A stretch of 64,000 nt of DNA from Sphingomonas sp. J315 (GTDB lineage Bacteria > Pseudomonadota > Alphaproteobacteria > Sphingomonadales > Sphingomonadaceae), in contig NZ_CP088296.1 of the NCBI RefSeq assembly GCF_024666595.1, positions 1,674,001 to 1,738,000 of the forward strand, written 5' to 3'. How positions within the stretch are numbered: the stretch's first letter is position 1; each line of letters opens with the position of its first letter. A program made the position numbers and the translations under genes. Below are positions 1,438 to 57,104 of this stretch, one piece after another. The notes beneath the pieces were generated by a model. It saw only the letters and a list, made by a program, of their open reading frames with translations. It ran no database searches and was not told the origin of the DNA.

Positions 1438-1916
1438 TCACGGCAAGCGGTAGTGATCCGCCAGCCGGTCGAGCGCCAGCGTCAGCACCAGCCGCCCGGC
1501 CCGCGCGGGCCAGGCCAGCGCCTTTTCAGCCACCGGCACGCTCTCCCCGGCGCAAATCACCCGCCACAATATATCCGCCAGGCCCCGCCCCGCTGCCGCA
1601 ATCGCCGCATCGAACCGCCGTTTCGCTGCGATCTGCACCTGCGTTGGATCGAGCGCTGCACCCGGCAGCCCGCCGCGTCGCGCCGCCGGGGCCGCGTCCC
1701 ATCGCATCGTCACGCGCGGCCCCAGCGCCGCCATCTCATAATCGTCGCGCAGCCGCTCCCCGCCTCGAACTGACGCGCATCGACCATCCCGCGCGCGCGC
1801 AGCCACGCCAGCGGCGATTCAGCGTCGTTGACCGACACCCGCCGTCCGCTCCGCCGCGCCGGGGCATTCCGGATTACATGCCCATCCTCGATCGTCCGCT
1901 CGACCAGCTCACGCAT
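1438..1916 (-). pseudogene. DUF6456 family protein, frameshifted at a C4/G4 run
   Basis: The N-terminal frame reads MRELVERTIEDGHVIRN and continues to ARGMVDARQFEAG; the C-terminal frame resumes at ERLRDDYEMAALGPRVTMRW and runs to LVLTLALDRLADHYRLP. The two join smoothly if the G run at 1758-1761 (read on the minus strand) had five G instead of four. The span is 479 bases, one short of 160 codons. The C-terminal part resembles the DUF6456 family common in sphingomonads (function unknown, sometimes called a putative DNA-binding regulator). The ATG at 1916 is chosen because GAGGGAG precedes it by six bases. It is divergent from the XRE gene. A sequencing error is more likely than a true pseudogene. 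Confidence 0.7.
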
Positions 1917-1981
1917 TCCTGACTCCCTCATCGCCTGCAGAATCGGGCTTGCCACGACGTCACGCTTGTAGGAAAGTGATT

Positions 1982-1996
1982 TAACCACATCGGTTA
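1982..1996. promoter_or_regulatory. Inverted repeat TAACC-N5-GGTTA at the XRE gene start
   Basis: A perfect five-base dyad (TAACC, spacer ACATC, GGTTA) ends one base before the ATG of the XRE regulator and lies in the 81-base gap between two divergent genes. Its position would let a bound protein block initiation. Autoregulation by the adjacent HTH protein is an inference from location only. Confidence 0.35.
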
Positions 1997-1997
1997 G

Positions 1998-2579
1998 ATG
2001 GAGCTGCAATTGATCACCGCGATCCGCGAAGTGCGTCGTGCCAAAGGGCTGACGCTGGAGGAAGTGGCACAACGCTGCGACCCGCCGACCACCGCGCAGA
2101 CGATCGGGCGGCTGGAGACCGGCACGCGCACCGTGTCGGTGGTCTGGCTCAACCGCATCGCCGCCGCGCTCGGGGTCGACGCCGCCGATCTCGTCCGCTT
2201 CCCCGATCGCCCCGATATCCCGGTTGCTGCCAGCCTCGATTCTTCGGGAGCACAGGCGTTGCGCCGACCCGCCAATGTCGTGCCGCCGATCGCCGAGCCT
2301 GATCTGGTCGCAGTCACCGTCAGCGGCAGCATCGGCGACTATCGCGCGGGCGACGAGGTGTGGTGCCGTCGCCTCGCCCCCCAGGCATTCGCACAGGCAC
2401 TCAACCGGGACGTATTGATCCCCCGCCCCGCCGGTCGTTTTCTGTTCGGCCGCCTGATCGCGCATGAGGGCGAAGGGGGCCGGCTCAACGTCCTGCCGCT
2501 TGGCCCGGGTGCGCGGCAACAGGTGGTCGCCGACCCGCCCTGGATCGCCTGTGCGGTGCGGCTCGTCCGCTCGCTCTGA
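1998..2579 (+). CDS. XRE-family helix-turn-helix transcriptional regulator
   Basis: The protein has 193 residues. Residues 1-60 form an HTH_3/Cro-C1 domain: LITAIREVRRAKGLTLEEVA, then the recognition region TTAQTIGRLETGTRTVSV and LNRIAAALGV. The rest (about 60-193) is a beta-rich domain with DLVAVTVSGSIGDYRAGDEV, reminiscent of the LexA/S24-like fold seen at the end of many phage-type repressors, but I see no clear Ser-Lys catalytic pair, so self-cleavage is not supported. There is no convincing Shine-Dalgarno within 15 bases of the ATG, so translation may be leaderless. It is divergent from the DUF6456 gene, with a dyad over its start. The target genes are unknown. Confidence 0.75.
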   Translation: MELQLITAIREVRRAKGLTLEEVAQRCDPPTTAQTIGRLETGTRTVSVVWLNRIAAALGVDAADLVRFPDRPDIPVAASLDSSGAQALRRPANVVPPIAEPDLVAVTVSGSIGDYRAGDEVWCRRLAPQAFAQALNRDVLIPRPAGRFLFGRLIAHEGEGGRLNVLPLGPGARQQVVADPPWIACAVRLVRSL

Positions 2580-2669
2580 ACCTGAACCTCGTCCGCGCCC
2601 CCCCGACATCTTGCACATGGCGCAACGCGGGCGCATGCTGCTCCCACGTCCTTTTAGGGGAGGGATGCC

Positions 2670-3032
2670 ATGCATTATCTGACCGGGCTGGTTACGGCCC
2701 TGTTCGTCGCGTCACCCGCACTTGCCGAGGATTGGGACTTTGTCCTGATCAACGGCACCGGCAAGCCGATCAAGACCGTCGAGCTCGCGCCGACCGGATC
2801 GACCGACTGGAAGCCTGGACTGGAGGAAGAAGGGGCGCGGCGCGAACCCGTGGTGAAGCCCGGCGCGCGCACCACCGTTCGCCTTGATCGACCGTCAAGC
2901 CAGTGCCGCTACGATCTGCGCGCGACCTTCGACGACGCCTCGACGATGGTCTTCAGCAACGCCAATATCTGCGACAACAGCTATGTCACGGTGAAGCTGA
3001 CGGGCGGAAAGCCGTCGATCAGCGCGAACTAA
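2670..3032 (+). CDS. Hypothetical periplasmic protein, 120 aa
   Basis: A clear Sec signal peptide (YLTGLVTALFVASPALA, cleavage before EDWD) begins a small secreted protein. The mature part reads DFVLINGTGKPIKTVELAPT and later contains two cysteines (SSQCRYDLRAT, NANICDNSYVTV) that probably form a disulfide. Immunoglobulin-like or jelly-roll strands seem likely; I do not know a function. The start is fixed by GGGGAGGG just upstream of the ATG. The 18 bases after the stop lead into the convergent tRNA-Val. Confidence 0.6.
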   Translation: MHYLTGLVTALFVASPALAEDWDFVLINGTGKPIKTVELAPTGSTDWKPGLEEEGARREPVVKPGARTTVRLDRPSSQCRYDLRATFDDASTMVFSNANICDNSYVTVKLTGGKPSISAN

Positions 3033-3051
3033 GGATCATGGAGCCGGAAAA

Positions 3052-3127
3052 TGGTGGGCGCTGACGGGCTCGAACCGCCGACCCTCTCGGTGTAAACGAG
3101 ATGCTCTACCAACTGAGCTAAGCGCCC
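3052..3127 (-). tRNA. tRNA-Val (UAC)
   Basis: Read on the minus strand, the 76-nt gene starts GGGCGCT and ends AGCGCCC-A-CCA, giving a perfect seven-pair acceptor stem with an encoded CCA. The D-arm carries AGCTCAGTTGGTAGAGC and the T-arm GGTTCGAGCC. The anticodon loop TTTACAC is closed by TCTCG/CGAGA, giving anticodon UAC (Val). It is an isolated tRNA between a small exported protein gene and gltX. Confidence 0.95.
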
Positions 3128-3214
3128 GGACCGCGTCCCGATAGGCGCAAGTGCCGCGCGCGTAAAGATGCGCGGCGCTTTCCATTGTGCGGTCAAATCG
3201 GCTAGCGCGCGCGG

Positions 3215-4549
3215 ATGACCAGCACGCCCGTCGTCACCCGCTTCGCGCCCAGCCCCACCGGCCATCTGCATGTCGGCAATATCCGCACCGCGCTCCACAA
3301 CTGGATGTGGGCGCAAAAACATGGTGGGCGCTTCCTGCTGCGCATCGACGACACCGACGCCGAACGCTCGCAGGAATCCTATGTCGACGCGATCCGCGCC
3401 GATCTCGCCTGGCTCGGCCTCGATCCCGATGGCGAGGCGCGCCAGTCGCAGCGCTTCGACCTGTATGAACGCCGCTTCGCCGAACTTGTCGAGGCGGGCC
3501 GTGTCTATCCCGCCTATGAGAGCCAGCAGGAGCTTGAACTCAAGCGCAAGATCCAGCTCGGCCGCGGCCTTCCGCCAATCTATGATCGCGCCGCGCTGGC
3601 ACTTACCGAAACCGACCGCGCCGCGCTGGAGGCAGCGGGGACCCGCCCGCACTGGCGCTTCAAGCTCGACAATGGCGCGCCGATCGAATGGACCGACCTG
3701 ATCCGGGGGGCCCAGCGCTTCGATCCCGCGACGATGAGCGATCCCGTCATCCGCCGCGCCGACGGCTCCTGGCTCTACCTGCTCCCCTCGGTGATCGACG
3801 ATATCGACATGGGCATCACCCATGTCGTGCGTGGCGAGGACCATGTTTCCAATACCGCCGCGCAAGTGCAGATGTTCGCCGCGCTCGGCGCGCGGCCACC
3901 CGCTTTCGCGCACGAGGCGCTGCTCACCGGGAACGAGGGAAAATTGTCCAAACGCCTCGGCTCGCTCGGATGCGATCATTTCCGCGACATCGGGCTTGAG
4001 CCGCAAGCGATCATCGCCCTGCTCGCTCGGCTCGGCACCAGCGATCCGGTCGAGCCGCACGCCGACCGCGCGCCGCTGATCGCCGGGTTCGACTTCGCCC
4101 GCTTCGGCCGCGCCCCCGCGCGGTTCGACGAAGGCGAGCTGGCGCAGCTCAACGCGCGCATCGTCCACCAGCTGCCCTTCGACGCAGTCGCCGACCGACT
4201 ACCCGTCGGCATGGACGTGGCGGCATGGGACGCGATCCGCCCCAATCTCGAGACGGTCGCCGGTGCAGCGGACTGGTGGCAGGTCGTCGCCGGGCCAATC
4301 GACGCCTCCGCCGACCCCGAGGACCGCGCCTTCCTCGACACCGCCGCCGACATCGCCGCGACCCTCGACTGGGCCGCCGACCCTTGGCACGCGCTGACCG
4401 GCGCGCTCAAGGGAGCGACCGAACGCAAGGGCCGCGCGCTGTTCCATCCACTCCGCCGCGCGCTCACCGGTCGCGACTCGGGCCCCGACATGGCGGCGCT
4501 GCTCCCGCTGATCGGCCGCGAACGCGTGATCGAAAGGCTGCGCGGCTGA
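3215..4549 (+). CDS. gltX: Glutamyl-tRNA synthetase
   Basis: This 444-residue cytoplasmic class I aminoacyl-tRNA synthetase charges tRNA with glutamate. The HIGH-type motif PSPTGHLHVGN is near residue 12, RIDDTD follows, HVVRGEDHVSNT lies in the Rossmann core, and the KMSKS equivalent is GKLSKRLGS around residue 243. A helical anticodon-binding region fills the C-terminal 150 residues. The length is slightly below the usual 465-480, typical of the second GluRS type of alphaproteobacteria. A glutamyl-Q-tRNA(Asp) synthetase would lack the C-terminal domain, so full GluRS is preferred. Whether a second GltX exists elsewhere, and which tRNAs this copy charges, cannot be seen here. Confidence 0.9.
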   Translation: MTSTPVVTRFAPSPTGHLHVGNIRTALHNWMWAQKHGGRFLLRIDDTDAERSQESYVDAIRADLAWLGLDPDGEARQSQRFDLYERRFAELVEAGRVYPAYESQQELELKRKIQLGRGLPPIYDRAALALTETDRAALEAAGTRPHWRFKLDNGAPIEWTDLIRGAQRFDPATMSDPVIRRADGSWLYLLPSVIDDIDMGITHVVRGEDHVSNTAAQVQMFAALGARPPAFAHEALLTGNEGKLSKRLGSLGCDHFRDIGLEPQAIIALLARLGTSDPVEPHADRAPLIAGFDFARFGRAPARFDEGELAQLNARIVHQLPFDAVADRLPVGMDVAAWDAIRPNLETVAGAADWWQVVAGPIDASADPEDRAFLDTAADIAATLDWAADPWHALTGALKGATERKGRALFHPLRRALTGRDSGPDMAALLPLIGRERVIERLRG

Positions 4550-4636
4550 GCGGGGTCGCTCGTTCGGCCCCTCCCATTTTCCCTCCACCGCGCAGTCCGA
4601 TCACCCGGTCGAAAAAGGGATTTGCAACCTTTATGT

Positions 4637-4650
4637 GATGGTATATCATC
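4637..4650. promoter_or_regulatory. Imperfect palindrome GATGGTATATCATC upstream of the TonB gene
   Basis: The 14-base dyad has one mismatch and sits 39 bases upstream of the TonB start in an AT-rich patch (TTTATGTGATGGTATATCATC) that stands out from the GC-rich background. TonB genes are often controlled by metal regulators such as Fur or Zur, and the AT-rich core is compatible with that. No regulator can be assigned from sequence alone. Confidence 0.35.
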
Positions 4651-12635: not shown

Positions 12636-15354
12636 GCGCGCTCCCCTATCCCTCCCTCCACGCCAGCCATGGCGGCATCTGGATCGCGACCGCAGAGGGC
12701 ACGCGCAGCATCGGGCGCGGCGAGGCGGTGCGGATCGCCGCCGACACCCCGGTCATCCTGCTCAATGCCCCGCTGACAGCACAGCGCCTCGGCTATCCCG
12801 ATCTGTCGGGGCTCGACCTGCTCGAACTTTTCGCATTCCTGCGCCCGGCTCGCTTCATGGTGCCGACGCCGCGCGGCCTCGCCCGCACGCTGGGTATCGC
12901 TGAACCTGTCGACGACTCCGCCGTCGCGCCGTTCCTGCGCGACGCTGCCGAAGCGATGCTGGCGATCGCCGATACCGACTGGCCCGAGCGCGAGGGCGCA
13001 TGGCATGCCGCCCAGTCGTTGGCAAAATTGCGCTGGAGCTGGGCACCGGCGGTGTCGCAGAGCCTGACTCGCCCGGAAAGGGCCGAACGCTGGCTGTTTT
13101 CCCGCCTGCCCGAATGGAGTGAGGGAGCGCCGCGCACCCCACCGCGCACCGTGAGCCTCGATCCCGAGGCCGTGCGCGATCGGCTCGCCACCCTCACTGG
13201 CTCGGGCGCAGAGGTGCGTGCAGGCCAACGCCTCTACGCCGAAGCGGCGGCGAGCGCCTTCGCCCCTCGCACGATGCGCGATTCGCCCAATCTTGTGCTT
13301 GCCGAGGCCGGGACCGGGATCGGCAAGACGCTGGGCTATCTCGCCCCCGCCTCGCTTTGGGCGCAGCAGGCCGATGGCGCGGTGTGGATCTCGACCTTTA
13401 CCAAGGCGCTGCAACGCCAGTTGGGGCATGAAGGCGAGCGGCTGTTCGCCGATCCCGAGGAGCGCAAGCGCCGCATCGTCACGCGCAAGGGTCGCGAAAA
13501 TTATCTCTGCCTGCTCAACCTTGAGGATGCGCTGCAGGGCGGGTTCGCGGGCCGCGCGGCGATCCTCGCGCAGCTCGTCGCACGCTGGGCCGCATACACC
13601 GCCGATGGCGACATGGTCGGCGGCGACCTGCCCGGCTGGCTGCCCGTGCTGTTCCGCCGCAACGGATCGACCGCACTGACCGACCGGCGCGGCGAATGCG
13701 TCTATGCCGGCTGCCCCCCACTACCGGAAGTGCTTCATCGAGCGCGCCGCTCGGGCTAGCGCCGACGCCGACATCGTCATCGCCAATCACGCGCTCGTCA
13801 TGGTCAACGCCGCGCGCGGCCGCGAAACCGCGACCCGCCCGACCCGCTACGTCTTCGACGAAGGCCACCATATTTTCGACGCCGCGGACGCGATGTTCAG
13901 CGTCGCGCTGTCGGGACAGGAAACCATCGAGCTGCGCCGCTGGGTCACCGGCCCCGAAAGCGGATCGCGCGGTCGCCGTCGCGGGCTGGCCGCGCGGCTG
14001 TCGGATGTCGCCAGCTATGACGATGCCGGCGCGCGCGCGATCAGTGAGGCGGTCGATGCCGCCCGCGCCTTGCCCTCCGACGGCTGGCTCCAACGGCTCG
14101 CCGAGGGGCAGCCCTTCGGCCCGATCGAGCATCTCCTCGCCGCCGTGCGCGGCCTCGTCTATGCCCGTGATAGCGATGGATCGGGCGAGGCCGGCTATGG
14201 CATCGAGACCGAACTGGCCGAGCCCGATGCGCCGCTGATCGACGCGATCCCGCCTGCCGCCGCCGCGCTCGAATCGCTGCTCCGCCCACTGATGGCGCTG
14301 GGGCGGCGGCTCGAGGCAGTGCTCGACGAAGCCCCCGACTGGATGGACGGCCCGGCACGCGCGCGGATCGAGGGGGCGATCGCATCATTGGGCTGGCGCG
14401 CCGAAACCGTCGCCGCCTGGCTGTCGTTGGTCGCCCGGATCGGCGGCCCGGTAACCCCCGAGTTCGTCGACTGGCTCGCCGTCGAACGGATCGAGGGGCG
14501 CGAGATCGATATCGGCATCCACCGCCGATGGCTCGACCCCCAGCAAGCCGTTCGCCGAGACGGTGCTCAGGCCCGCGCATGGGGCGCTGGTCACCTCCGC
14601 GACCCTGCGCGCTGGCGGTGACTGGGAGGTCGCGGAACAGCGTAGCGGCGCGCAGCACCTGCTCCATCCCGCCCAGCGGTTCGAGGCGGCGTCACCCTTC
14701 GACTATCCACGTCAGGCCGAAGTGCTGATCGTCACCGACATCAAGCGCGGCGACATGGGCGCCCTCGCCTCCGCCTATGCCCGGCTGATCATCGCGGCAC
14801 AGGGCGGGACGCTCGGGCTGTTCACCGCGATCCGGCGGCTGCGTGCGGTGCACACCCGCATCGCCGACCGTTTGGCGCGCGAAGGGCTGCCGCTCTACGC
14901 CCAGCATGTCGATCCGATCGACACCGGCACTCTGGTCGACATCTTCCGCGACGATCCGCGCGCGTCGCTGATCGGCACCGACGCGTTGCGCGACGGGGTC
15001 GATGTCCCCGGTCATTCGCTGCGGCTGGTGGTGATGGAGGGCGTACCCTGGCCCAAGCCGAGCGTGCTCCACGCGGCGCGGCGACTCGCGGGTGGCGGCA
15101 GCGCCTATGACGACCGCATTGTACGCGCGCGGCTGGCGCAGGCGTTCGGTCGGCTGATCCGCCGCGCCGACGATTCTGGCGCGTTCGTGCTGCTCTCCGC
15201 CGCTACCCCGTCGCGGCTGCTCGACGCCTTCCCACACGGCACACCAGTCGTCCGCTTGACGCTCGATGAGGCCGTGGAGCGCGTGCGGCGTCTTTCCTCC
15301 GTCGCATCGCTGGGGCAGAAGGCACGTGAATCCGCCGATCCGGAGGGCCGATGA
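12632..15354 (+). pseudogene. DinG/XPD-type ATP-dependent helicase, broken by two +1 homopolymer frameshifts
   Basis: Three reading frames together encode one superfamily 2 helicase of about 906 residues. Frame 1 starts at GTG 12632 and holds Walker A (LAEAGTGIGKTLGYLAP) and the first Fe-S cysteines (ENYLCLLN, GECVYAGC). Frame 2 continues HYRKCFIERAARASADADIV IANH and contains the DEAH-like box VFDEGHHIFD. Frame 3 resumes at VLRPAHGALVTSATLRAGGD and holds the RecA2 domain. Both joins are mended by removing one C, from the C6 run at 13714-13719 and from the C5 run at 14538-14542. The total length, 2723 bases, equals 907 codons plus two. The function is DNA unwinding in repair. A double sequencing error is the most likely explanation. 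Confidence 0.85.
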
Positions 15355-15890: not shown

Positions 15891-15907
15891 TCAGCGCCGA
15901 TCGCAGA

Positions 15908-16236
15908 TTAGCGGTCGTCGTTCAACGCGCGTTGCAGCGAGTCGCGCACCGCACGCAGCGAGTCGCTCCGCCCCCGCCGCGCGCCGCGTTCGGCATCGAG
16001 CAGCCGCTGGACTCCGCGGATCGAATATCCTTCCCGGCTGAGCAGCGAATCGATGCGGCGAACCAATGCGACGTCATCGGGCCGATAATAGCGTCGCCCC
16101 CCGCGCGCTGTAACGGGCGCAGCTGGGAAAAGCGCGTCTCCCAATATCTCAGTATATGCTGAGGGCGCCCGATTTCTTGCGCAAGCTCACCGATCGTCCG
16201 GAAGGCTTCGGGGCCCTTCTCCGGACCGGTTGCCAT
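15908..16236 (-). pseudogene. MerR family transcriptional regulator, frameshifted at a C6/G6 run
   Basis: The N-terminal frame reads FRTIGELAQEIGRPQHILRY and RYWETRFSQLRPLQRAGG, the winged HTH of a MerR regulator. The C-terminal frame resumes at GGRRYYRPDDVALVRRIDSL and continues LLSREGYSIRGVQRLL. The break falls at the C6 run 16097-16102; restoring a seventh G on the coding strand joins the two in register. The span of 329 bases is one short of 110 codons (109 aa). This regulator typically follows ihfA in sphingomonads, and here it starts 2 bases beyond the ihfA stop codon. The target is unknown. A sequencing error is likely. Confidence 0.82.
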
Positions 16237-16237
16237 G

Positions 16238-16537
16238 TCATCCCCCGTTGACGATCCGGTCGCGCAGCATCTGGCTGGCCCGGAAGGTAAGCACCCGGCG
16301 CGGTGCGATCGGAACCTCGACCCCCGTCTTGGGATTGCGACCGATCCGCTCGCCCTTATCGCGCAGCACGAAGCTACCGAAGCCCGAAATCTTGACGTTC
16401 TCGCCCTTGGCGAGCGCCTCGCACATATGGCCGAGGATCTGTTCGACGAGACGCGAGGCGTCGGCACGCGAGAGGCCCACATCGCGATGCAGCGCATCAG
16501 CGAGATCGGCCCTGGTCAGCGTCGCGGCGGTTGCCAT
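16238..16537 (-). CDS. ihfA: Integration host factor subunit alpha
   Basis: IHF-alpha (99 aa) pairs with IHF-beta to bend DNA sharply, affecting recombination, replication and transcription. The HU/IHF fold is complete: [29 protein letters not shown], the beta-arm region [20 protein letters not shown], and [20 protein letters not shown] with the conserved Arg-Asn-Pro tip. The alpha assignment rests on the N-terminal [10 protein letters not shown] and the neighbourhood (downstream of fabH, before merR). It belongs to the rpmF-plsX-fabH-ihfA-merR operon on the minus strand, with a gap of about 117 bases to fabH. Confidence 0.92.
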
Positions 16538-20395: not shown

Positions 20396-21690
20396 TCAAT
20401 GCGCAGTCGGAGCGTAAATTGCGCGCACTGCGTCCGCACGCAACGGCCATTTGTCCGATGGGAAGTAATTGACCATCACCGTCCCGCGCACCTTTTTCGC
20501 CGGATCGACCCACGCGACCGTGCCCGCCGCACCGCCCCAGCCATAGGTGCCCTTGCCCGCCCCGCCGGGTATATCCTCAAGCTGCACCGATCCGCCCGCG
20601 CCAAAACCCATCTTCGGCCCTGTCGCGCCGCCGCTCCCCCCGGCGCGCCGCCGAATGTGACGCCAGCGGGCAACAGATCCGACATGGCAAGCCGCACCGT
20701 CTCCGCCTTCATCACACGGACGCCATCCACGATACCGCCATTGGCGAGCATGTGCAGGAACCGGTCATAATCGCGCGCCGACATCACCAGCCCCGCGCCG
20801 CCATAGGGAAAGGAAGGCGGCGTCAGCCATGCCGAGCTCCTGGCCGGGTCGAAGGGCACGCGATTGTCGCCCGCCCAGGCATAGTTGGTCGCGAACCGCG
20901 CGATCTCCGACTGCGGCACGGTCCAGTAGGTCGAGGTCATCTTGAGCGGCCCGAGCAGCCGCTTTTGCAAGAACTGCTCATAGGGCATCCCCGCCGCCGC
21001 CTCGATGATCGCAGGGAGCAGGTCCAGGCTGATCGAATAGCTCCATTTGGTCCCCGGTTCGGCGATCAGCGGCAGCGTCGCGACGCGCTGCGCAAATTCC
21101 TTGAGGCTCTTGGGGCGCAAGGGCCGCGCCTGCGCCTCCAGTGCCGCATTGACCGCCCCCGGCGTGATCCCCAGCCGCTCATATTCCTGGAGCAACGGCC
21201 CCTTGGTGATGATCGAATAGCCAAGTCCCGCGGTGTGGGTCAGCAGATGCCGCACCGTGATCTGGGTCTTGGCCGGACGGCTGTCGAGGCTGTTCACCGG
21301 ATCGGTCAGCACCTTCATGTTCCGGAAACCGGGGAAGAATTCGGAAATCGGCTGGTCGAGTTTCAGCTTGCCGTCCTCGACCAGCATCATCGCCGCCATG
21401 CCGGTAATCGGCTTGGTCATCGAATAGACGCGCCATAGCGAGTCGGGACCTGCTGCCGCGGCATCGGCCTCAACCGCGATGCGTCCGGCGCTCGCAAAGA
21501 CCGGCACCGAATCGCCGACGCCATAGGCGATGACAATCCCCTGGGTGCGATTCTGCGCGACATAGTCCTGCGCCATCGCCGCAACCGGAGCCTTGACCAC
21601 CGTCGCGGTCGCCGCCTGCCCGAACGCCGCCGATTGCGTTGTCGCCAGTGCCAGCGCCAGCGCGCCCCCGATCATCCAGCTCGCCTTCAT
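20396..21690 (-). pseudogene. Serine hydrolase of the beta-lactamase/EstB family, frameshifted at a C6/G6 run
   Basis: A signal peptide (MIGGALALALATTQSAAFG) is followed by a class C beta-lactamase-like domain: the catalytic SxxK is VYSMTKPITGMAAMM, the Tyr motif is KWSYSISLDLL, and HTAGLGYS is also typical. The frame derails after TFGGAPGG; the C-terminus continues in another frame as MGFGAGGSVQLEDIPGG, GTYGWGGAAGTVAWVDP and VNYFPSDKWPL. The break maps to the C6 run 20636-20641, where a seventh G on the coding strand restores one protein of about 431 aa (span 1295 = 1296 minus 1). Likely an exported esterase or peptidase; probably intact in the organism. Its start overlaps the mutY stop. Confidence 0.85.
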
Positions 21691-27700: not shown

Positions 27701-28192
27701 GAGGGCCGCCAGCGGCTGCTGACCGCGTTCGAGGCGGTCGACCAGCATTTCCGACGTCTGTTCACCACCCTGTTCGACGGCGGCCAGGCGCATCTGGCGC
27801 TGATCGACTCCGACGATCCGCTGGAGGCGGGGCTGGAGATCATGGCGCAGCCGCCGGGCAAGAAGCTTCAGTCGCTGACCCTGTTGTCTGGCGGCGAACA
27901 GGCGCTGACCGCGGTCGCGCTGATCTTCGCGCTGTTCCTCACCAATCCCGCGCCGATCTGCGTCCTCGACGAAGTCGATGCGCCGCTCGACGACGCCAAT
28001 ATCGAGCGCTTTTGCGACCTGCTCGAAGCAATGACGCGCGAGACCGCAACCCGCTATCTGATCGTCACCCACAATGCCGCAACGATGAGCCGCATGCACC
28101 GCCTGTTCGGCGTGACGATGGTCGAGCGCGGGGTCAGCCGTCTCGTCTCGGTCGATCTGGGCGGCGTGGAATCGCTGCTGGCGGCGGAGTGA
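24779..28192 (+). CDS. smc: Chromosome segregation protein SMC
   Basis: SMC (1137 aa) forms the condensin core that organises the chromosome with ScpAB. Walker A is [20 protein letters not shown] near residue 30. Two very long Ala/Glu/Arg-rich coiled coils flank a hinge of about residues 500-640 that includes [20 protein letters not shown]. The ABC signature [19 protein letters not shown] and Walker B [20 protein letters not shown] lie near residues 1040 and 1065. The coiled coils also throw up several long antisense reading frames that are not genes. The stop overlaps the presumed GTG start of the symporter gene. Confidence 0.96.
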   Translation: [1137 protein letters not shown]

Positions 28193-28226
28193 GCGTCGCC
28201 CCCGCCCGACCCGCTTCCGCCTCGCT

Positions 28227-29522
28227 TTGTTCGGGTTCGGGGACTTTGCGTTCAATCTCTACTGGCAGAGCGCGATGCTCTTCCTGCTGTTCTACTACAC
28301 CGACGCGCTGGGGCTGCCGGTGGGAGTGGCGGCAACGATCTTTCTGGCGGCATCGGTGTGGGACGGGATTGCGAACTTCGCCGCAGGGCTGCTCGCCGAC
28401 CGGCATGAGCCGCGCGGGGGGCTGGGGCGGTTGCTGGCGCTGGGCGGAATGCCGCTGGGGCTGGGCTTCATGCTCGCCTATTTGCCCCCGCTTGCGCCCG
28501 GATACTGGGGGATGGCAGGGATTTTTGCGGGGCATATCCTGTTCCGCACCGCCTATGCCTTTCTCAACGTCCCCTATCTGGCGATGAGCGCGCGGGTCAG
28601 CACCGACAGCAATGACCGGGCGTTCGTTGCGGGGGTGCGCATGCTGTCGGGCACGCTTGCCGCGATCGTGGTGGCACTCGGCACGGTGCCGCTGGGTGCA
28701 GGACTGCTCGGGGCCGAACGCGCCGCCGATGCGTATTTCGGGGCGGCGATCCTGTTCGCGCTTGCCGGGGCAGCGATTCTCGCCTTTGTCGGCCTGAGCT
28801 ATCGCGAAGCCGATGTGCCGCAGCGCGCCGAGCCGGTTCCGGTGCTGACGGCTCTACGCGCCATCGCCGCCAACCGCGCCTTTGTCACGCTGAACCTAGC
28901 GATGATGGCGGTGATCGTGGCGGTGACGATCCTCAACAAGTCGGTCCTCTATTATTTCAAATATTTTCTCCACGACGAGGCGAGCGGTCAGCTCGCCCTC
29001 GCGTCGATGAGCGTGGTCAGCGCGGTGTCAGTGCCACTGTGGATGCTGCTGCGCCGACGCATCGGCGCGCGGGGCCTGTGGTTCCTCGCCGCCGGGTTGG
29101 CGAGCGCCGGGCTCGCCGCCTTCGCGCTGGTCGATATCCACCGCGCCGGGGTGATGCAGGCCTATCTGATGGCGATGCAGGCGATGATCGTCGGCCTCAA
29201 CTTCGTGTTCTGGGCGATGCTGCCCAACACGATCGAATATGGCGAGCAGCGCACCGGGCTGCGCGTCGAGGGCGCGGTGTTCGGCATGGCGGCGTTGCTT
29301 CAGCGGGTGGCGATCGGGCTGGCCACGGCGATCCTCGGCTTCGGATTCGATAGCGCCGGTTATGTCGCCAATGTCGATCAGAGCGACGCGACGCTTACCG
29401 CGATGCGGCTGACGATCGCGCTCGTCCCGCTCGGCTTCCTCGCCTTCTCGTGCGTGATGATGGCGCTCAACCCGCTCGCGCGCGGCACGCATGCGCAGAT
29501 CGTTCGCGACCTGAGAGGTTGA
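28227..29522 (+). CDS. MFS/GPH-type sugar:cation symporter, N-terminus probably frameshifted
   Basis: The ORF begins at TTG 28227 with FGFGDFAFNLYWQSAMLFLL and encodes about 12 membrane helices of the glycoside-pentoside-hexuronide (MelB-like) family; RVSTDSNDRAFVAGVRMLSG and AMLPNTIEYGEQRTGLRVEG are diagnostic cytoplasmic motifs. Family members usually carry a short basic N-terminus. A GTG at 28189 overlapping the smc stop would supply it (SVAPRPTRFRLALFGFGDF) if the C5 run at 28199-28203 had six C. The full span then equals 445 codons. The substrate is unknown; the nearby GH3 and GH43 genes make an oligosaccharide or sugar likely. Confidence 0.8.
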   Translation: MFGFGDFAFNLYWQSAMLFLLFYYTDALGLPVGVAATIFLAASVWDGIANFAAGLLADRHEPRGGLGRLLALGGMPLGLGFMLAYLPPLAPGYWGMAGIFAGHILFRTAYAFLNVPYLAMSARVSTDSNDRAFVAGVRMLSGTLAAIVVALGTVPLGAGLLGAERAADAYFGAAILFALAGAAILAFVGLSYREADVPQRAEPVPVLTALRAIAANRAFVTLNLAMMAVIVAVTILNKSVLYYFKYFLHDEASGQLALASMSVVSAVSVPLWMLLRRRIGARGLWFLAAGLASAGLAAFALVDIHRAGVMQAYLMAMQAMIVGLNFVFWAMLPNTIEYGEQRTGLRVEGAVFGMAALLQRVAIGLATAILGFGFDSAGYVANVDQSDATLTAMRLTIALVPLGFLAFSCVMMALNPLARGTHAQIVRDLRG

Positions 29523-29603: not shown

Positions 29604-31902
29604 TCAGGCGGCGGTGAGGGTGAAGGTCGAGTGGACGCCCTGTGCTTCTGCAGACGGCGCGATCCAAACGTCGAACAGGCCGGCCTCCACCGTGGGCTTG
29701 AGATCCACGCCGATGAACTGCAGGTCACGACGGCGCAGCACGAAGCGCACCGTCTCGCTCGCCCCGGGGGCCAACGCCAGCTTGCGGAACGCCTTGAGCT
29801 CACGCACCGGACGGGTGATGCTCGCCGCGCGGTCGCGGATGTAGAGCTGCACCACTTCCTCGATCGCACGCGTGCCGCGATTTGTGATCGTCGCGGTGAA
29901 GGCGATCTCGCCGTCCCAGCCCAGCGTCCCCTGCTGCGGAGTCAGGCCCGCATACTCGACCTTGCCGTAAGTCAGCCCGTGCCCGAACGGATAGAGCGAC
30001 GAGTTCGGGCTGGTGCGCCAGCGGGTCTTGTACGGCTCGAGCTTGTCGTCGCTCGGGTTCGGACGACCGGTCGGCTTGTGCGCATAGTGATAGGGCTGCT
30101 GCCCGGATTCGCGCGGGAAGCTGATCGGCAGGCGCGCCGAAGGGCTATAGTCGCCGAACAGCACGTCGGCGATGGCATTGCCGCTCTCCGACCCCAGGAA
30201 CCAGGTGACGAGGATTGCGGGGGCGTTCTTGACCGCCCCCCTCCAGCGCCAGCGCGCGACCATTCTTGAGCAGCACGACGATCGGCTTCCCGGTTGCCGC
30301 CACGGCTTCGGCCAGCGCCATCTGCGGCGCGGGGACGGTGATGCTGGTGCGCGACTGCGCCTCGCCCGACATATTCTCCGACTCGCCGATCACGAGCAGC
30401 ACGACGTCCGCCGCGTTCGCCGCCGCCACCGCGGCGGCAATCCCGCCATCCAGCGGCGCCTCGACCTTCGATCCCAGCGTCACGCTGACCGGGGCGTCCT
30501 TGCCCAGCGCGTTACGGATGCCGGTGGCCAGGTCGATCGCCTGCTTGTTGTCGCCATAGACGCACCACGGGCCGTTGAGGTCATGCTGACCCTCCGCGAA
30601 CGGACCGATGATCGCGATCTTCTTGCCCGATTTCGGCAGCGGCAGCAGGTCGCCGTCATTCTTGAGCATGACGATCGAACGCTTGCCCGCTTCCCGCGCC
30701 AGCGCGAGATTTTCCTTGGTCCGCGTCCGCGCGGCTTCGCGCTTTTCGTCGATGCGACGGAACGGATCCTCGAACAGGCCGAGCTTGGCCTTGAGCGCCA
30801 GCACCTTGCGCACCGAAGCATCGACCCGCGCCATCGGCACCTCGCCCTTCTCGACCAGGTCGGGAAGGTGGTCGCGGTAGAAACCGCTGGTCATGCTCAT
30901 GTCGACACCGGCCATGAAGGCGAGCTTGGTCGCCTCACGCGCATCGGCGGCATAGCCATGCGCGATCATCTCCATGTCGCCGGTGTAATCGGACACGACA
31001 AAGCCGTCGAAGCCCCATTCGTCGCGCAAAATCTTGCGCATCAGCCACTCATTGCCGGTGGCGGGGACACCCGACAGCTCGTTGAACGCCGCCATCGTGG
31101 TTGGCGCGCCCGCAGCAAAGGCGGCCTGGAAGGGTGGGAAATAGACTTCGCGCAGCGTCCGCTCGGACACATCGACGGTGTTGTAGTCCAGCCCCGCCTC
31201 CGCCGCGCCATAAGCGGCGAAATGCTTGGCGCAGGCCATCATCGTGTCGATCGCCTTGAGGCTCTTGCCCTGGAAGCCGCGCACGCGCGCCTCGGCGAAG
31301 AGGTTGCCGAGCAGCACGTCCTCGCCCGATCCCTCGACCCCGCGGCCCCAGCGCTGGTCGCGCGCAATGTCGACCATCGGAGCAAAGGTCCAGTCGATGC
31401 CCGCAGCAGCCGCCTCGAACGACGCCGCCGCGGCCGCCTTTTGCGCGAGCAATGGCTCGAAGCTCGCCGCCTCGCCCAGCGGGACCGGGAAGATGGTGCG
31501 ATGACCGTGGATGATGTCGGCGGCGAAGATCAGCGGAACCTTGAGCCGCGATTCCTGCATCGCTGCAGTCTGCATCATCCGGCACATGCGCGCATTGTTG
31601 CCGTTGAACACGCCGGTGATGCGGCCCTGACGCACTTCGTCGAGCTGCTGCCCGAAATTGGCGTTCGATCCGCTTGGCGGGTTCATCGCGATCGCCGCGC
31701 CGCCGCCCCATGCCGCGGCCATCAGGCTGAGCTGGCCCGCCTTTTCGTGAATCGTCATCTTCGCCACCAGCGCATCGACGAACCCGGGAACCTCGACCCT
31801 GGCCGCTTCACCCATCAGCGCCCGCGCCGGGCTGTGCAGCCATGCGGCGACCGCACCCGCACCCATCAGGGCGGCGCGGCGGGAAATCCGGGTGTCGAGC
31901 AT
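29604..31902 (-). pseudogene. bglX: GH3 beta-glucosidase/xylosidase (BglX-like), frameshifted at a C6/G6 run
   Basis: The gene encodes a secreted family 3 glycoside hydrolase of about 765 aa. The N-terminus has RRAALMGAGAVAAWLHS, a possible twin-arginine signal. The barrel has GIDWTFAPMVDIARDQRWGR and CAKHFAAYG; the nucleophile region is FVVSDYTGDMEMIAHG. The second domain follows (KKIAIIGPFAEGQHDLNGPW), and the frame breaks after LLKNGRALALEG. The C-terminus resumes as AVKNAPAILVTWFLGSESGN with the fibronectin-III-like tail. Removing one C from 30236-30241 repairs it (span 2299 = 2298 plus 1). The ATG at 31902 follows AGAGGA. A LacI-type palindrome lies upstream. Probably intact in vivo. Confidence 0.87.
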
Positions 31903-31991
31903 CTTGGGTCCTCTCGTGAACGGGTCGCACCGGCAAGGGCGCGAAAATCGAATGGATGGCGCGCCCCGATTTGGGGTTGTCGCGGCAAACC

Positions 31992-32003
31992 GTAACCGGT
32001 TAC
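31992..32003. promoter_or_regulatory. LacI-type operator GTAACCGGTTAC (bglX/lacI intergenic)
   Basis: A perfect 12-base palindrome sits in the 178-base gap between the divergent GH3 gene and the LacI regulator gene. The CG-centred GTAACCGGTTAC is typical of LacI-family operators. The same core, extended to TGTAACCGGTTACA, occurs upstream of the GH43 gene at 34936-34949. It probably controls the GH3 gene and the regulator itself. Confidence 0.7.
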
Positions 32004-32080
32004 ATGCCGTGTAACGATCGCATTTGCAATCGCGAAAGACCCGAACCAGAAGGAACGTTATCAACGGGGGTGTCGGACGG

Positions 32081-33070
32081 ATGGGCGAAGCGACGATTCG
32101 GGATGTGGCACGGCAGGCAAAGGTGTCGATCGCATCGGTGTCGCGCGCGCTGAACGGGCTGGGCAATGTCCGTGCCGAGACGCGCGAGCGCGTGATCGCT
32201 GCAGCAAACGAGCTGGGCTATGTCCCCCATGCCGGCGCACGCAGCCTCAGCCTGGCCCGCGCGCACGCGATCGGGGTCGTGCTGCCCGACCTGCATGGCG
32301 AGTTCTTCAGCGAGTTCGTGCGCGGCCTCGATCGCGAGGCGAGCCGCCGCGGCTATGTGATGCTGCTATCGGTGATGCATGACGACAGCGAACAGGCAGC
32401 GATGGCATTGCGCGCAATGCGCGGCCGGGTCGACGGACTGGTGGTAATGGCGCCGCATCTGCCCGAGTCGATGCTGCGACGTGCGCTGCCGACCGGCCTG
32501 CCTTCGCTGATCATCAACGGCCCACGCGCGATCAGCGACCTGGCGACCGTACGGCTCGACAACAACGCAGCGACCGACGCGATGGTCGCCCATCTGGTCG
32601 CAGCCGGTCGCCGCCGGATTGTCCATATTGCGGGGCCGGAGGGCAATATCGATGCGAGCGAACGCGCGAGCGCCTTCCGGGCCAGCATCGCCCGACACCT
32701 GCCCGGGGTTGAGCCGATCGTCCTGCCCGGCGATTTCGCCGAAGAGGGCGGCGAGGCGGTAGCCCGGGCGATCGTCGCGGGGCAGATCGACTGCGACGCC
32801 GTATTCGCGGCGAATGACATGATGGCCATCGGGTGCCTCAACGGGCTGCGCGGGGCGGGGATCGATGTTCCGGGCCGGGTCGCGGTCACCGGCTTCGACG
32901 ATATCCCGCTCGCGCGCTATCTGGGCGTTACCACCATGCGGGTGCGGATCGCCGAACTGGGCGAGGACGCGATCGGCCGGGTGATCGACGTGCTTGAGGG
33001 CGAAGGTGCGGATACGCGCGCGGAACTGCACCAGGCCGAACTGGTGGTACGCTCGACCAGCGCAAGCTAA
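32081..33070 (+). CDS. LacI family transcriptional regulator
   Basis: The 329-residue repressor has an N-terminal HTH (TIRDVARQAKVSIASVSRAL NG, about residues 5-26), the hinge helix region AGARSLSLARAHAIGVVLPD and a periplasmic-binding-like effector domain (VDGLVVMAPHLPES, VFAANDMMAIGCLNGLR, VAVTGFDDIPLARYLGVTT). It lies between two glycoside hydrolase genes that carry identical palindromes, so it most likely represses both until an oligosaccharide or sugar is present. The ATG at 32081 is chosen as giving the standard LacI N-terminus; an upstream in-frame ATG at 32024 would add 19 atypical residues. Confidence 0.92.
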   Translation: MGEATIRDVARQAKVSIASVSRALNGLGNVRAETRERVIAAANELGYVPHAGARSLSLARAHAIGVVLPDLHGEFFSEFVRGLDREASRRGYVMLLSVMHDDSEQAAMALRAMRGRVDGLVVMAPHLPESMLRRALPTGLPSLIINGPRAISDLATVRLDNNAATDAMVAHLVAAGRRRIVHIAGPEGNIDASERASAFRASIARHLPGVEPIVLPGDFAEEGGEAVARAIVAGQIDCDAVFAANDMMAIGCLNGLRGAGIDVPGRVAVTGFDDIPLARYLGVTTMRVRIAELGEDAIGRVIDVLEGEGADTRAELHQAELVVRSTSAS

Positions 33071-45634: not shown

Positions 45635-46337
45635 GCCTCCCCCGATCGGGCGGAAAGCGCAGCGCGCCGGTCGGGTCGAGCACCCGCCCCTTTTCGATCC
45701 GCATCATCCGCGCGTTCGGGATGCGGTTGAGCAGGTGGAAATCGTGCGTCGCGACCACCACGGTGGTGCCGAGCCGGTTGAGCGAATCGAACAGGTGCAA
45801 CAGCCGTTCGGCCATGTCGGGATCGACGTTGCCGGTCGGTTCGTCGGCCACCAGCATCTCCGGGCGTGTGATCACCGCACGCGCAATGGCGATCCGCTGC
45901 TGCTCGCCACCCGACAAGGTCGGCGGTTTGGCCTTGCCACGGTCGGTCAGACCCACCCAGGCGAGCATTTCGCGCACCGGCGCCTCGATCTCCCCCTCGG
46001 GCATGCCCGCGACACGCAGCGGCAGGGCGATATTGTCATAGGCCGAGAGATGCGGGAGCAGGCGGAAGTCCTGGAACACCACCCCGATGCGGCGACGGAA
46101 TCCGGGTAGGCGGCGGCGCGGCAATGCGCCCGCATCCTCGCCGAACAGCCGCACCACGCCGCGCGTCGGTCGCTGGGCGAGGTACAGGAGCTTGAGCAGC
46201 GAGGTCTTGCCCGCGCCCGACGCGCCGGTCAGGAAATAGAACGCGCCGGCGCTGAGCGTGAAACTGACGTCGCTCAGCGTTTCGGTCCCGGTGCCATAGC
46301 GCAGGCCGACATTCTCAAACTGAACGATATTGGCCAT
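45480..46337 (-). CDS. ftsE: Cell division ATP-binding protein FtsE, C-terminus probably misread
   Basis: The ABC ATPase domain is complete: [20 protein letters not shown] (Walker A), [20 protein letters not shown] (Q loop), [20 protein letters not shown] (signature), [19 protein letters not shown] (Walker B) and THDFHLLNR (switch His). The frame as written gives 285 aa; beyond GALRFPPDR it reads the ftsX gene out of frame. A sixth G in the G5 run at 45638-45642 (minus-strand sense) would end FtsE at about 235 aa with TGA at 45631, overlapping ftsX by ATGA, the normal arrangement. The ATG at 46337 is used because it gives [14 protein letters not shown]; the earlier Met is not typical. Confidence 0.87.
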
Positions 46338-46524
46338 GTGCCGGCGTCGGCCGCTCCTGATCCTTCTGCCCCGGGCCAGCCATCGCACAGCCATCGGGCG
46401 CGCTCAAGCCGGGCGGCTCGGCGGAACGACTCGGCCCTTGCCATTCGTGCGCTGCAGGTGTTTAGATTCGGGACCGGCGGTTTCCATATTGGGTTGGGAA
46501 AGCTGCCTAGCAACGCGTGCCGCC

Positions 46525-47202: not shown

Positions 47203-48532
47203 TCCACCACAGGCGTCCGCCATTCAGCAAGGCAGCCGCGACCATCCCGCTGCCCGACGCCCAGACCAGCCCCATCGGCCCCCAGCCATTGTGGACCGTC
47301 CACAGGCCGACCGCGCCGGTCAGCACGAAAAAGGCGAGGATGCCGTTGATGCCCGCCGCGACCTGATCGCCCAGCGAGCGCAGCGCATAGACGCACACCA
47401 CCTGAAGCCCGTCGAACAGGATGAATGGTGCCCAGACCGCAAGCATCAGCGCGGCCAGCGTCGCCACTTCGGCGGACGCGGGAAAGCCCGAAACGATGAG
47501 CGCGGGCGTGAAGATGAGCGGAATTGCGAGCAGACCCAGAATCAGCGCGGCCAGGATTGCGGCGATGCCGGTGCGCGGCCCGGCCTGTGTCGGTACGCCT
47601 TCCCCCACCGCATTGCCCGCGCGCACGCCTGCGGCTGAACCCAGGCCAAGCGCGAAGGCGAAGGTGACGTTGTGGACCGAAAAGACGATCTGGAAGGCGT
47701 GGGTGACCGATTCGCCGAGCTGCGTCGACAGGGCGATCAGGATCGAGAAACCGGCCAGTTCGAGTCCCGATGCGACCGCAGGCACCGCACCGAATGCCAT
47801 CAGCCGCCCGACGCCACGCCACATTTCGGGCGTGCCGAGGTCGCTCCAGTCGCGCACGCCGCGTTCCTTCGCGCGGGGCAGGGTCAGGGCGGCGACGGTC
47901 ATCGCGACCGCGCCGACCATCGTCGCGAACACCGTCGCGCTGGCCGCGCCCACCGCGCCCAGCGCAGGCAGGCCGAACTGGCCGGTGGCGAGGATCCAGG
48001 CGAGGACCGCGTTGAGCGGCAGGATCGAGAGGTTGACCGCCATCACCCGGCGCGGACGGCTGACACCTTCGAGGAAGAAGCTGGCGGCGACGATGATCAG
48101 CTGAAACGGGTAGGCGATCGCCATGATCTGTACGACCCGCGCCGCTTCGGGGGCGATGCCGGGATCCACACCGACGCCAAGCAGCATCGGCAGCGCGAGG
48201 ACGAACAGCAGCACGCCGCTGGTCACGCCCAGGATGCCGCCCAGCACCAGGCCCTGACGCAGCACCGCGCCGGTGGCTGGCAAGTCCTTTGCCCCGTCGG
48301 CGCGGGAGGAGAAGACGAGGACGCCGGTGAGCCAGCCCAGGGCGACGACGATGCCGATAAAGGTCAGCGTGCGGCTGGCCCCAAGCGCCGCGACCTCATG
48401 CGTGCTGACCAGGCCGACGACGATCACGTCGGTGACGTGCAGGATCGTCCAATTGAGGCCGGTCAGCACCACCGGCCAGGCCAGCGCGAGGATGCGGCGA
48501 ATCTCCGCGCGGGTTTCGATGGACAAGGTCAT
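47174..48532 (-). CDS. MATE family efflux transporter
   Basis: The 452-aa protein has 12 predicted membrane helices in two MATE repeats. The first repeat starts [20 protein letters not shown] and [20 protein letters not shown]; the second contains the typical amphipathic cytoplasmic loops and [20 protein letters not shown]. It exports drugs, toxins or cationic metabolites using a Na+ or H+ gradient. The C-terminus overlaps the zinc-ribbon gene end on the opposite strand. It is transcribed away from the downstream tRNA-Leu. Confidence 0.9.
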
Positions 48533-48650
48533 GGGCGGGTCGCCTTAGCGCCAGCGAGGCTTCGACAAAAGGGAGGTTGCATGCCCCCGGGGCTTTGCTA
48601 GGGGCCGCTGCCTTACCCGCCGCCGGTCTGATCCGGTGTGCGAAATCCGT

Positions 48651-54122: not shown

Positions 54123-54139
54123 CTTGCGCCGACATCTTC

Positions 54140-54291
54140 TCCCCTCCCTGAAAGGGAGGGGCAAGGGGTGGGTTTAGTGGCAAGCGAGGCTCGATGCCTC
54201 GATTGCCGCTGTTTTGCCGTCCGGCCCGTTTGAGTCTGTTCGGCGCGCAGACGCGCGCACCCACCCTGACCCCTCCCTTGCAGGGAGGGGA
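54140..54291. repeat. REPIN-like element: two inverted hairpin copies
   Basis: The left copy (54140-54173) and the right copy (54259-54291) are near-identical when one is reverse-complemented: TCCCCTCCCTGxAAGGGAGG, then a G-rich tail. Each is itself a hairpin CCCCTCCCT-N3-AGGGAGGGG at 54141-54161 and 54270-54290. They flank about 85 bases between the converging lysS and DUF389 genes. The inverted pairing is the architecture of REPIN-type elements; the hairpins may also stop transcription from both sides. Confidence 0.55.
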
Positions 54292-54298
54292 GCGAAGG

Positions 54299-55771
54299 CT
54301 AGTTGGCCTCTTCCGGCGCGAGCCAGCGCAGGCGGGCGGCGCTGTTGCCGTTGCCAGTGACGCTTGCGTCGACGCCTGCTTCGGTCAGGGCGTTAACGAC
54401 GGTCTGCGCACCGCTGCCTGATACACCGATCGGGAGCTTGATCCGCTGTGCCGCCCAGATTGCGGTGGCGAGCGCTTCGGCGTCGGGCTTGTCGTCCTCG
54501 ACCGCGATGTCGGGGAGCGCGGCGACGGGCGGGATCAGGGTGACGATCCAGCCCTGAACCCCCGCCGCGACGCGGGTTTCGAGCGCGCGATAGGCGGCAA
54601 GGTTCGCGCCGGGGAGCGCGGCGGCGTTGACCACGGCGCGGCGATTGTCGCGGTCGAGCAGCACTGCGTCCGCTTTCACCCCGGCGATCAGCGCGAGCTG
54701 TTCCTGCGCGCGCGCGGCAAGGCGGTTGGCGGCGGTGGCGCTCGTCGCCTGCGCGGCGGCGACCTGAGCGGCTTCGGCCTGCGCGCCGGTGCCGACGCGG
54801 ATCTGTTCGAGCTCGACCGCGACCGGACGGCCGACGAGCTGGGCAAGGACGCCCTGCGCGCGGCGTTCGACATCCTCCCGCACGCGCGGGGTCATGACGG
54901 TGGCGGTGACGCGTACCGGATCGGCCTCATAGTCGATCTCGACCTGACTCAGACGCGCCGCGCCTTCGAACTCGCCGCTGATCACGTCGCGGATCTGGCG
55001 CGAGGTGTTCGCTTCCCAGCCGAGCTGGACCAATACCAGCCCGAGCGGAATCGCGAACGCCGCCAGCGCGACGGTGACGACGATCGTCTGCAGCATCGTG
55101 TGCTGGGGCGAGAGGTGCGAGCCGAAGCCGTAGAGGCGCGCGACCACGGCGGCGGCGACCGCGATGGTGATGAGGTTGGTGAGGAACAGCAGCAGCGATC
55201 CGGCGAAGACGGTCCAGTTCCAGGTGGCGAGGCCGAAGCCGACCACCGCGAGCGGGGGCATCAGCGCCGTGGCGATGGCGACGCCGACCACGGTGCCCGC
55301 CCTGCCCCGGATCATCGCATAAGCCCCCGCGAGCGCAGAGAAGAGCGCGACCAGCAGGTCGAACAGATTTGGTCGGGTGCGCGCGGCGATTTCCGCGGTC
55401 ACATTCTGGATCGGCGAGACCAGCACGAGCAAGGCGGTGAACAGGATCGCGATGACGATGCCCAGCGCGAGCGCGATGCAGGCGGTGCGGATCTCGTCCC
55501 AGTCGAAGGTCGCAAGGCCGAAGCCGAGACCGATGATCGGACCCATCAGCGGCGAGATCAGCATCGCGCCGATCACCACCGCAGGCGAGGATAGCAACAA
55601 CCCCAGCACCGCGATGCCCGCCGACATCAAGGTCATGAATGCGTAGCGGCCGGTGAACCCGGCTTCCTCGCGCACCTTCTCGACGACATCGACGTGATCG
55701 ACCGTGGCGATCACCCGTGTCCGCCACCAGGCAACGAGCGGATTGTCGGGCTTCAACAACGCGATGCTCAT
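54299..55771 (-). CDS. DUF389 family membrane protein
   Basis: The 490-aa protein has an N-terminal DUF389/TIGR00341 domain: GRYAFMTLMSAGIAVLGLLL, SSPAVVIGAMLISPLMGPII GLG, DWDEIRTACIALALGIVIAI, RPNLFDLLVALFSALAGAYA, and GVAIATALMPPLAVVGFGLA. The remaining 250 residues include a second membrane part and a soluble Ala-rich C-terminus with QEQLALIAGVKADAV. The function of the family is not known; some members are linked to stress or transport. The ATG at 55771 gives SIALLKPDNPLVAWWRTRV. It is divergent from nhaA. Confidence 0.82.
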   Translation of the reverse strand: MSIALLKPDNPLVAWWRTRVIATVDHVDVVEKVREEAGFTGRYAFMTLMSAGIAVLGLLLSSPAVVIGAMLISPLMGPIIGLGFGLATFDWDEIRTACIALALGIVIAILFTALLVLVSPIQNVTAEIAARTRPNLFDLLVALFSALAGAYAMIRGRAGTVVGVAIATALMPPLAVVGFGLATWNWTVFAGSLLLFLTNLITIAVAAAVVARLYGFGSHLSPQHTMLQTIVVTVALAAFAIPLGLVLVQLGWEANTSRQIRDVISGEFEGAARLSQVEIDYEADPVRVTATVMTPRVREDVERRAQGVLAQLVGRPVAVELEQIRVGTGAQAEAAQVAAAQATSATAANRLAARAQEQLALIAGVKADAVLLDRDNRRAVVNAAALPGANLAAYRALETRVAAGVQGWIVTLIPPVAALPDIAVEDDKPDAEALATAIWAAQRIKLPIGVSGSGAQTVVNALTEAGVDASVTGNGNSAARLRWLAPEEAN

Positions 55772-55849
55772 GGAAGAGGCTGTAGGGGGTTTGCCCCGGC
55801 GGTTCCAGCGGTTAGGCAGATGGGCGAACCGCAATCACAGGGGAAGTTC

Positions 55850-57104
55850 ATGGCCGCGCGTCACGACCATGCAGGACGATCGGTGCTGCGTACCTTTCTG
55901 AAGAGCGAGGCGGCCGGCGGCATCATCCTGATGGCCGCCGCAGCCCTGGCGATGATCGTCGCCAATCTGCCCGGCATTTCGGAGGCCTATTTCCACCTGC
56001 TTCACGCCGAGACCGGTCCGGTGATCAGCCCGAAATACGGGTCGATGACCGTACATCTGTGGATCAACGATGCGCTGATGGCGATCTTCTTCCTGTTCGT
56101 CGGGCTGGAGATCAAGCGCGAGTTCATCGATGGGCGGCTGGCGAGCTGGGAACATCGGCGGCTGCCAATCGTCGCGGCGGCGGCGGGGATGGTGGGTCCG
56201 GCTTTGGTCTATCTGTTCATCACCGGGTGGAGCGGGCCGCTGGTCAATGGCTGGGCGATTCCCGCCGCGACCGACATCGCGTTCGCGATCGGGGTGCTGG
56301 CGCTGCTCGGCAGCCGCGCGCCCGCGTCGCTCAAGCTGTTCCTGACCACCGTCGCGATCGTCGATGACATGGGCGCGGTGGCGATCATCGCGATTGCCTA
56401 TACCGCCGAGCTGTCGACACTCTACATCGCACTCGGCGCGCTGGTGATGGCGACGATGTATGTGCTCAACCGCAGCGGGGTGAAGGCGCTCTGGCCCTAT
56501 CTGCTGCTCGGCGCGGCTTTGTGGTACTTCGTGTTCATGTCGGGCGTTCATGCGACGATCGCGGGGGGTGCTGACCGCGATGATGGTGCCGATCACCGCC
56601 AGCCCCGGCGCATGCGACGATGTCGAATCGCCGCTGCACATGCTGGAGCACGCGCTTGCCCCGTGGGTCGCCTATCTGATCGTGCCGGTGTTCGGATTTG
56701 CCAATGCGGGCGTCAGCCTGGCGGGGATGTCGCCGGCGATCCTGATCGCGCCGTTGCCGCTCGGCATCGCGGCGGGGCTGTTCCTGGGCAAGCAGGTCGG
56801 GATTTTCGGGAGCGTGTGGCTGGCGGCGAAGCTGCGCTTTGCCTCACCGCCGGGCGGGGCGACCTGGCTGCAAATCTATGCCGTGGCGATGCTGTGCGGC
56901 ATCGGCTTCACGATGAGCCTGTTCATCGGCGGGCTGGCGTTCCCCGGCAACGAGGAGCTGGTCGACGAGGTGAAGATCGGCGTGCTGGCGGGGTCGATCC
57001 TGTCGGCAATCGTCGGTTACACGATCCTGCGGGTCGCCCCGCGCTGGCGCAATGACCGGGCCGACGATGCCGATGCCGACCGCGACATACGCGCAGCCAG
57101 CTGA
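55850..57104 (+). pseudogene. nhaA: Na+/H+ antiporter NhaA, frameshifted at a G6 run
   Basis: NhaA is an inner-membrane antiporter that exports Na+ for H+. The first frame gives HDHAGRSVLRTFLKSEAAGG, LWINDALMAIFFLFVGLEIK and the catalytic Asp pair in TTVAIVDDMGAVAIIAIA. The frame breaks after MSGVHATIAG; the second frame continues VLTAMMVPITASPGACDDVE SPL with the rest of the helices and ends at 57104. One G too many in the G6 run 56563-56568 explains the break (span 1255 = 1254 plus 1; repaired length 417 aa). The ATG at 55850 has AGGGGA six bases upstream. Likely a sequencing error. Confidence 0.88.

Follow-up and report, generated by a model that had tools for sequence, protein, structure and literature searches.

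Nine one-base frame breaks interrupt eight conserved genes in a 64,000-nucleotide stretch of the Sphingomonas sp. J315 genome (the window; bases 1,674,001 to 1,738,000 in a genome assembled as one contig of 3,929,032 bp, completeness 96.29). Judged by comparison with related genomes, these breaks are very probably sequencing or assembly consensus errors of the deposited assembly and no biological feature of the bacterium. The original prediction, made from the window, had favored error over gene decay and programmed frameshifting, and this preference is borne out by the recurrence of the breaks genome-wide, a dose response to the length of G/C runs, the disruption of housekeeping genes, and the near absence of such breaks from control genomes.

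All nine breaks are present in the deposited sequence. The closest genome of the genus that was found, G015, is a draft assembly with 80 contigs and a completeness of 83%, and most of the window can be aligned to it at 82 to 91% DNA identity; because 93 of the 295 genus genomes were left unscored in this search, a closer relative may exist. At each of the nine sites the G015 ortholog is one open frame from which the window copy differs by a net single base. When indels against G015 are listed singly, every span is off by one base as had been claimed, and both directions occur: +1 at 13714, 14538, 30236, and 56563, and −1 at 1758, 16097, 20636, 28199, and 45638 (window positions). The runs themselves read C4 at 1758, C6 at 13714, C5 at 14537 to 14541, C6 at 16097, C6 at 20636, C5 at 28199, C6 at 30236, C5 at 45639 to 45643, and G6 at 56563. 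Eight of them thus lie where they had been placed, and the ninth was misplaced by one base, since position 45638 is a T.

A phase test that needs no gene calls, based on where third-position substitutions fall on either side of each indel, identifies which sequence is broken. At seven of the nine sites the third-position phase is continuous in G015 but jumps in the window, so the window frame is the broken one. The remaining two sites (28199 and 45638) sit at gene ends, where the phase test is unworkable, and were settled by comparing termini. In the 58,286 aligned coding bases of the window no further in-gene one-base shift was classified, with unclear events that could hide one.

Frame breaks across the genome

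Beyond the window, alignments to G015 covered the stretches at 100 to 140 kb, 460 to 560 kb, and 1634 to 1898 kb of the genome, a total of 301,066 bp of the 924 kb sampled, including 279,521 bp that are coding in G015. Three samples (L019, L026, and L031) had no useful match and stand outside this pairwise count. The 174 net-frameshifting indel clusters comprised 124 that were noncoding or unclear, 38 on the side of the J315 genome, and 12 on the side of G015. Restricting the count to isolated one-base events within genes predicted in G015 (strict events) retained 28 of the 38, against only 1 on the G015 side (genome position 515408, in the G015 gene at L096 13569 to 15806). Because the gene filter can miss genes broken in G015, the count without it is also given, 31 one-base shifts versus 7. 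Insertions outnumber deletions among the strict events by 20 to 8 (P = 0.036). One strict event, at genome position 552406, falls in the last codon of its gene, and the thresholds differ from those of the first listing, with a second site in purT (genome position 538004) classed in the first listing alone.

These breaks recur in every aligned part of the genome, and five genes carry two sites each: the helicase of the window, a 637-amino-acid gene, a 498-amino-acid gene with a weak HerA-like match, purT, and acnA. The density in the window is not special (0.12 strict events per kb, from 7 in 58,286 coding bases, versus 0.095/kb elsewhere; P = 0.64). Scaled to the whole genome, the strict events correspond to about 390 in-gene shifts, or roughly 1 per 10 kb of coding sequence. 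Completeness is also lower than in the 17 other genomes of the genus comparison that consist of one contig, which score 99 to 100. Of 204 genes tested, 22 showed a frame jump in the J315 genome, four of them not of a single base (43, 2, 118, and −2). The reverse test gave 10 of 217; several of these are pieces of genes broken in J315, and one, in a 1,018-amino-acid open reading frame (ORF), reflects a genuine break in G015.

Gene predictions from nine relatives were also looked up in the J315 genome and in each other, and frame breaks proved nearly absent from the relatives. A small frame jump was found at 27 of 295 loci in J315 versus 1 of 196 across seven controls (Fisher P = 1.1e-5), where the test tolerates offsets of up to 8 bases, so that not all 27 loci are one-base breaks. 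Singly, the controls gave 0/46 (G015), 0/15 (G029), 1/50 (G040), 0/30 (G010), 0/44 (G004), 0/10 (G021), and 0/1 (G018); G033 and G024 had no testable locus. Because G015 is closer to J315 than any reference is to the controls, the test was rerun without G015 as a reference, giving 10 of 93 versus 1 of 133 (P = 7e-4). The loci with an apparent jump include aroE, and the first jump in ilvE is probably an over-long start.

The frequency of shifts climbs steeply with the length of the G/C run. In the aligned coding sequence of J315, events were found at 2 of 1,565 runs of length 4, 6 of 312 runs of length 5, 14 of 61 runs of length 6, 1 of 3 runs of length 7, and the single run of length 8. A G/C run of at least 5 was touched by 22 of the 28 strict events, versus 1.0% of coding positions drawn at random (20,000 in all). 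In addition, runs of exactly six occur at twice the density seen in G015 (29.0 versus 13.8 per 100 kb).

Two further analyses were set aside. Of the strict events, 24 lie at G/C runs of at least 4, and on the plus strand 21 of these were C and 3 were G, which suggested a replication-strand effect; local run counts predict 17.1 ± 2.0 C, so the C preference is mostly base composition, with a mild excess left over. A frameshift hidden Markov model (HMM) run over J315 and control loci was noisy because overlapping genes were taken for shifts, and homology comparison was used instead. At its strictest setting after filtering, the HMM reported 26 shifts in 400 kb of J315 samples versus 9 in 685 kb of controls, and 4 places in the window, 1 of which (56615) was near an earlier-noted site.

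Genes hit by the breaks span many functions. By the best NCBIfam or Pfam match of their intact orthologs, they include nadC, ettA, trcR, crtI, ftsE, nhaA, lysA, fliA, bglX, purT (two sites), acnA (two sites), flhB, a gamma-glutamyltransferase, and an exosortase-associated O-ligase (the last three matches are below their equivalog cutoffs, those of the gamma-glutamyltransferase and O-ligase only just). The list also takes in leuS and hrpB along with an ilvE, a relA/spoT gene, and a gene resembling pabB. In the deposited genome acnA lies in three pieces, and two weaker partial AcnA matches at 273 to 275 kb are probably leuC and leuD. The gene lysA lies in two pieces, and with the next best match in the genome at 205.6 bits versus a cutoff of 297.9, the broken copy is the only family-grade lysA. 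No long run marks the point at which the frame of leuS changes, inside a well-conserved stretch (G010 was the only reference here). The breaks strike regardless of gene function, and they include leuS, ftsE, lysA, nadC, and acnA, which are generally regarded as essential.

Probable consensus error and its alternatives

If the breaks are consensus errors, reads or the base-caller would have miscounted G/C runs of about five bases or more, the consensus would have retained the wrong run length, and the reading frame would have been lost in the database, not in the cell. The living strain would then have intact frames. The likeliest platform would be an older long-read-only assembly.

The same dependence on run length, the mixed directions, and the predominance of one-base events are also what slippage looks like, as expected of a mutator lineage in which unrepaired slippage at G/C runs had truly frameshifted hundreds of genes. 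That explanation is very unlikely. An uninterrupted single frame encodes mutS (841.5 bits; the one gene examined among mutS, mutL, and uvrD), and leuS, the only AcnA-type aconitase gene, and the only lysA-grade gene are broken. Nonsense changes are scarce as well: among 242 genes tested there were 16 in-frame stops, in 12 ORFs. Seven of these stops were in matches of at least 85% identity and all fell at or before codon 59, where starts are uncertain; the other nine were in matches at 77 to 82% identity, and several of those ORFs we take to be wrongly called. A variant in which unusual slippage at short G/C runs has given a free-living Sphingomonas lineage several hundred real one-base frameshifts, those in leuS and the AcnA-type aconitase gene among them, and in which slippage in transcription or translation makes them tolerable, is extremely unlikely.

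About 1 tested locus in 11 is broken, a proportion that pseudogenes of a shrinking genome could produce. Decay would be expected to leave a mix of deletions, stops, and insertions, and most of the breaks seen instead involve one base at a G/C run. Broken and intact genes are conserved to the same degree (median identity to G015 of 0.910 versus 0.922; P = 0.21), housekeeping genes are struck, and a genome of 3.93 Mb is ordinary for the genus, leaving decay with almost no probability. Programmed ribosomal frameshifting or transcriptional slippage at G/C runs would give full-length proteins from the sequence as deposited, and slippage at a G6 or C6 run is conceivable. Such recoding is scarcely credible here, since at all nine sites G015 has one open frame for the same protein and so does not share the frameshift sites, shifts of +1 and −1 are spread over many unrelated genes, and the break in leuS occurs without a long run.

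Several observations weigh against consensus error. The dose response to run length, taken alone, would fit true replication slippage as well. Four of the 28 strict events lie away from G/C runs of at least 4 (at a T5 run, a C3 run, an A pair, and a single base), and some breaks, including those in leuS and fliA, have no long run. The protein database lists the window's form of its symporter (P0243) on two contigs, possibly a single assembly entered twice. No other AcnA match at the family cutoff was found in the genome, with AcnB not searched for, and the leuS break is likewise given without a search for a second leuS copy. Aconitase loss need not be lethal, so acnA alone is no proof: transposon insertion in an aconitase-domain gene of Sphingomonas wittichii gave a mutant that could be recovered on control medium (PMC4219479). 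In nanopore assemblies it is deletions that are tied to long homopolymers (PMC12007338), so nanopore is not suggested by the surplus of insertions in J315. The case for consensus error is built on the deposited sequence and its comparison with related genomes.

The affected genes of the window

The ATP-dependent helicase, DinG/YoaA-like (12656..15348, plus strand), is split into three frames by breaks at C6 13714 (+1) and C5 14537 to 14541 (+1). Its relatives match PF13307, and its NCBIfam matches are under the cutoff. The gene is one frame in G015, single-frame matches occur in G029, G004, G040, and G010, and a close intact homolog (P0035) is 97% identical. The 120 full-length helicases listed for this gene are no tally of intact copies, because the search omits much shorter proteins. 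A comparable homolog (P0146, 98%) exists for the Na+/H+ antiporter gene nhaA (55850..57104, plus strand), which breaks at G6 56563 with a net +1. The fourth +1 break, at C6 30236, lies in a glycoside hydrolase family 3 gene (bglX; 29607..32085, minus strand).

Three genes on the minus strand are each one base short within the gene. These are a DUF6456 gene (1453..1916; C4 at 1758), whose G015 ortholog matches Pfam PF20057; a MerR-family regulator gene (15914..16236; C6 at 16097), matching PF13411; and a PF00144 serine hydrolase gene (20411..21690; C6 at 20636), broken at about codon 350 of 431, whose NCBIfam matches are all under their cutoffs. Beside merR, a 17-base stretch between two genes (15897 to 15913) is lacking in G015. 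Directly upstream of merR, in both the window and G015, is a 99-amino-acid gene (16238 to 16537) that resembles IHF.

The two gene-end sites are a GPH-family symporter gene and ftsE. In the symporter gene (28189..29522, plus strand; PF13347 on relatives), the break at C5 28199 (net −1) puts the first 13 residues out of frame. The G015 protein has 13 in-frame residues ahead of FGFGDFAFN, the sequence with which the 431-amino-acid window protein begins, and the gene begins at a start codon that overlaps the stop codon of its upstream neighbor. Among 120 homologs listed, the FGD motif lies near the start in 111, preceded by at least 8 residues in 108 of them; the other 3 are the window's own protein and two others. 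Because those two also begin close to the motif, 28199 is the weaker of the two gene-end sites, an alternative start being less well excluded there than at the other sites. The longest contig given for P0243 is 3,929,132 bp, exactly 100 more than the J315 contig. In ftsE (45639..46337, minus strand), a one-base shift at or beside C5 45639 to 45643 (net −1) removes the stop in the last codons; the gene stops within three codons in all three of G015, G004, and G040, and the window frame reads on.

Outside predicted genes, the window differs from G015 by one base at two more C/G runs, in the manner of the nine sites: at 46372, upstream of ftsE, and at 48583, within a palindrome-looking stretch. 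GC skew turns from negative to positive near window position 48000; it is patchy across the sampled genome, so this position marks no clear origin or terminus.

Consequences and comparison with known systems

The breaks matter to users of the genome record, not as biology. If the sample is typical, the approximately 390 in-gene shifts would give hundreds of genes a false pseudogene annotation and would bias completeness scores, pangenome counts, and metabolic reconstructions. The genome is among the one-per-species set of the genus. The absence of intact nadC, acnA, and lysA from its predicted proteins is not to be taken as auxotrophy.

In phase-variable homopolymer tracts, one-base changes in G/C runs switch the reading frame, and the breaks in J315 resemble them in that respect. 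They differ in that the runs are short (mostly 5 to 6), many housekeeping genes are involved, and G015 keeps one frame.

Known assembly errors offer another comparison. Gene-fragmenting errors found through comparison with references have been described (Kastor; PMC12007338), and homopolymer-tied frameshifts raise pseudogene counts and lower completeness, as here; the errors described there are deletions at long homopolymers in nanopore data, unlike the 20 insertions versus 8 deletions in J315. The PacBio assembly of Sphingopyxis macrogoltabida 203N (HGAP3, 285x) contained 414 mismatches in 5.95 Mb, mostly at homopolymers and throughout the genome, which were revealed by Illumina data of the same DNA (PMC4901233). 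Error was shown there by Illumina data and is argued here from genome comparison, and the rates count slightly different things. Like J315, 203N is a sphingomonad, and the densities are of similar order, 1 mismatch per 14 kb compared with roughly 10 kb of coding sequence for each in-gene shift in J315.

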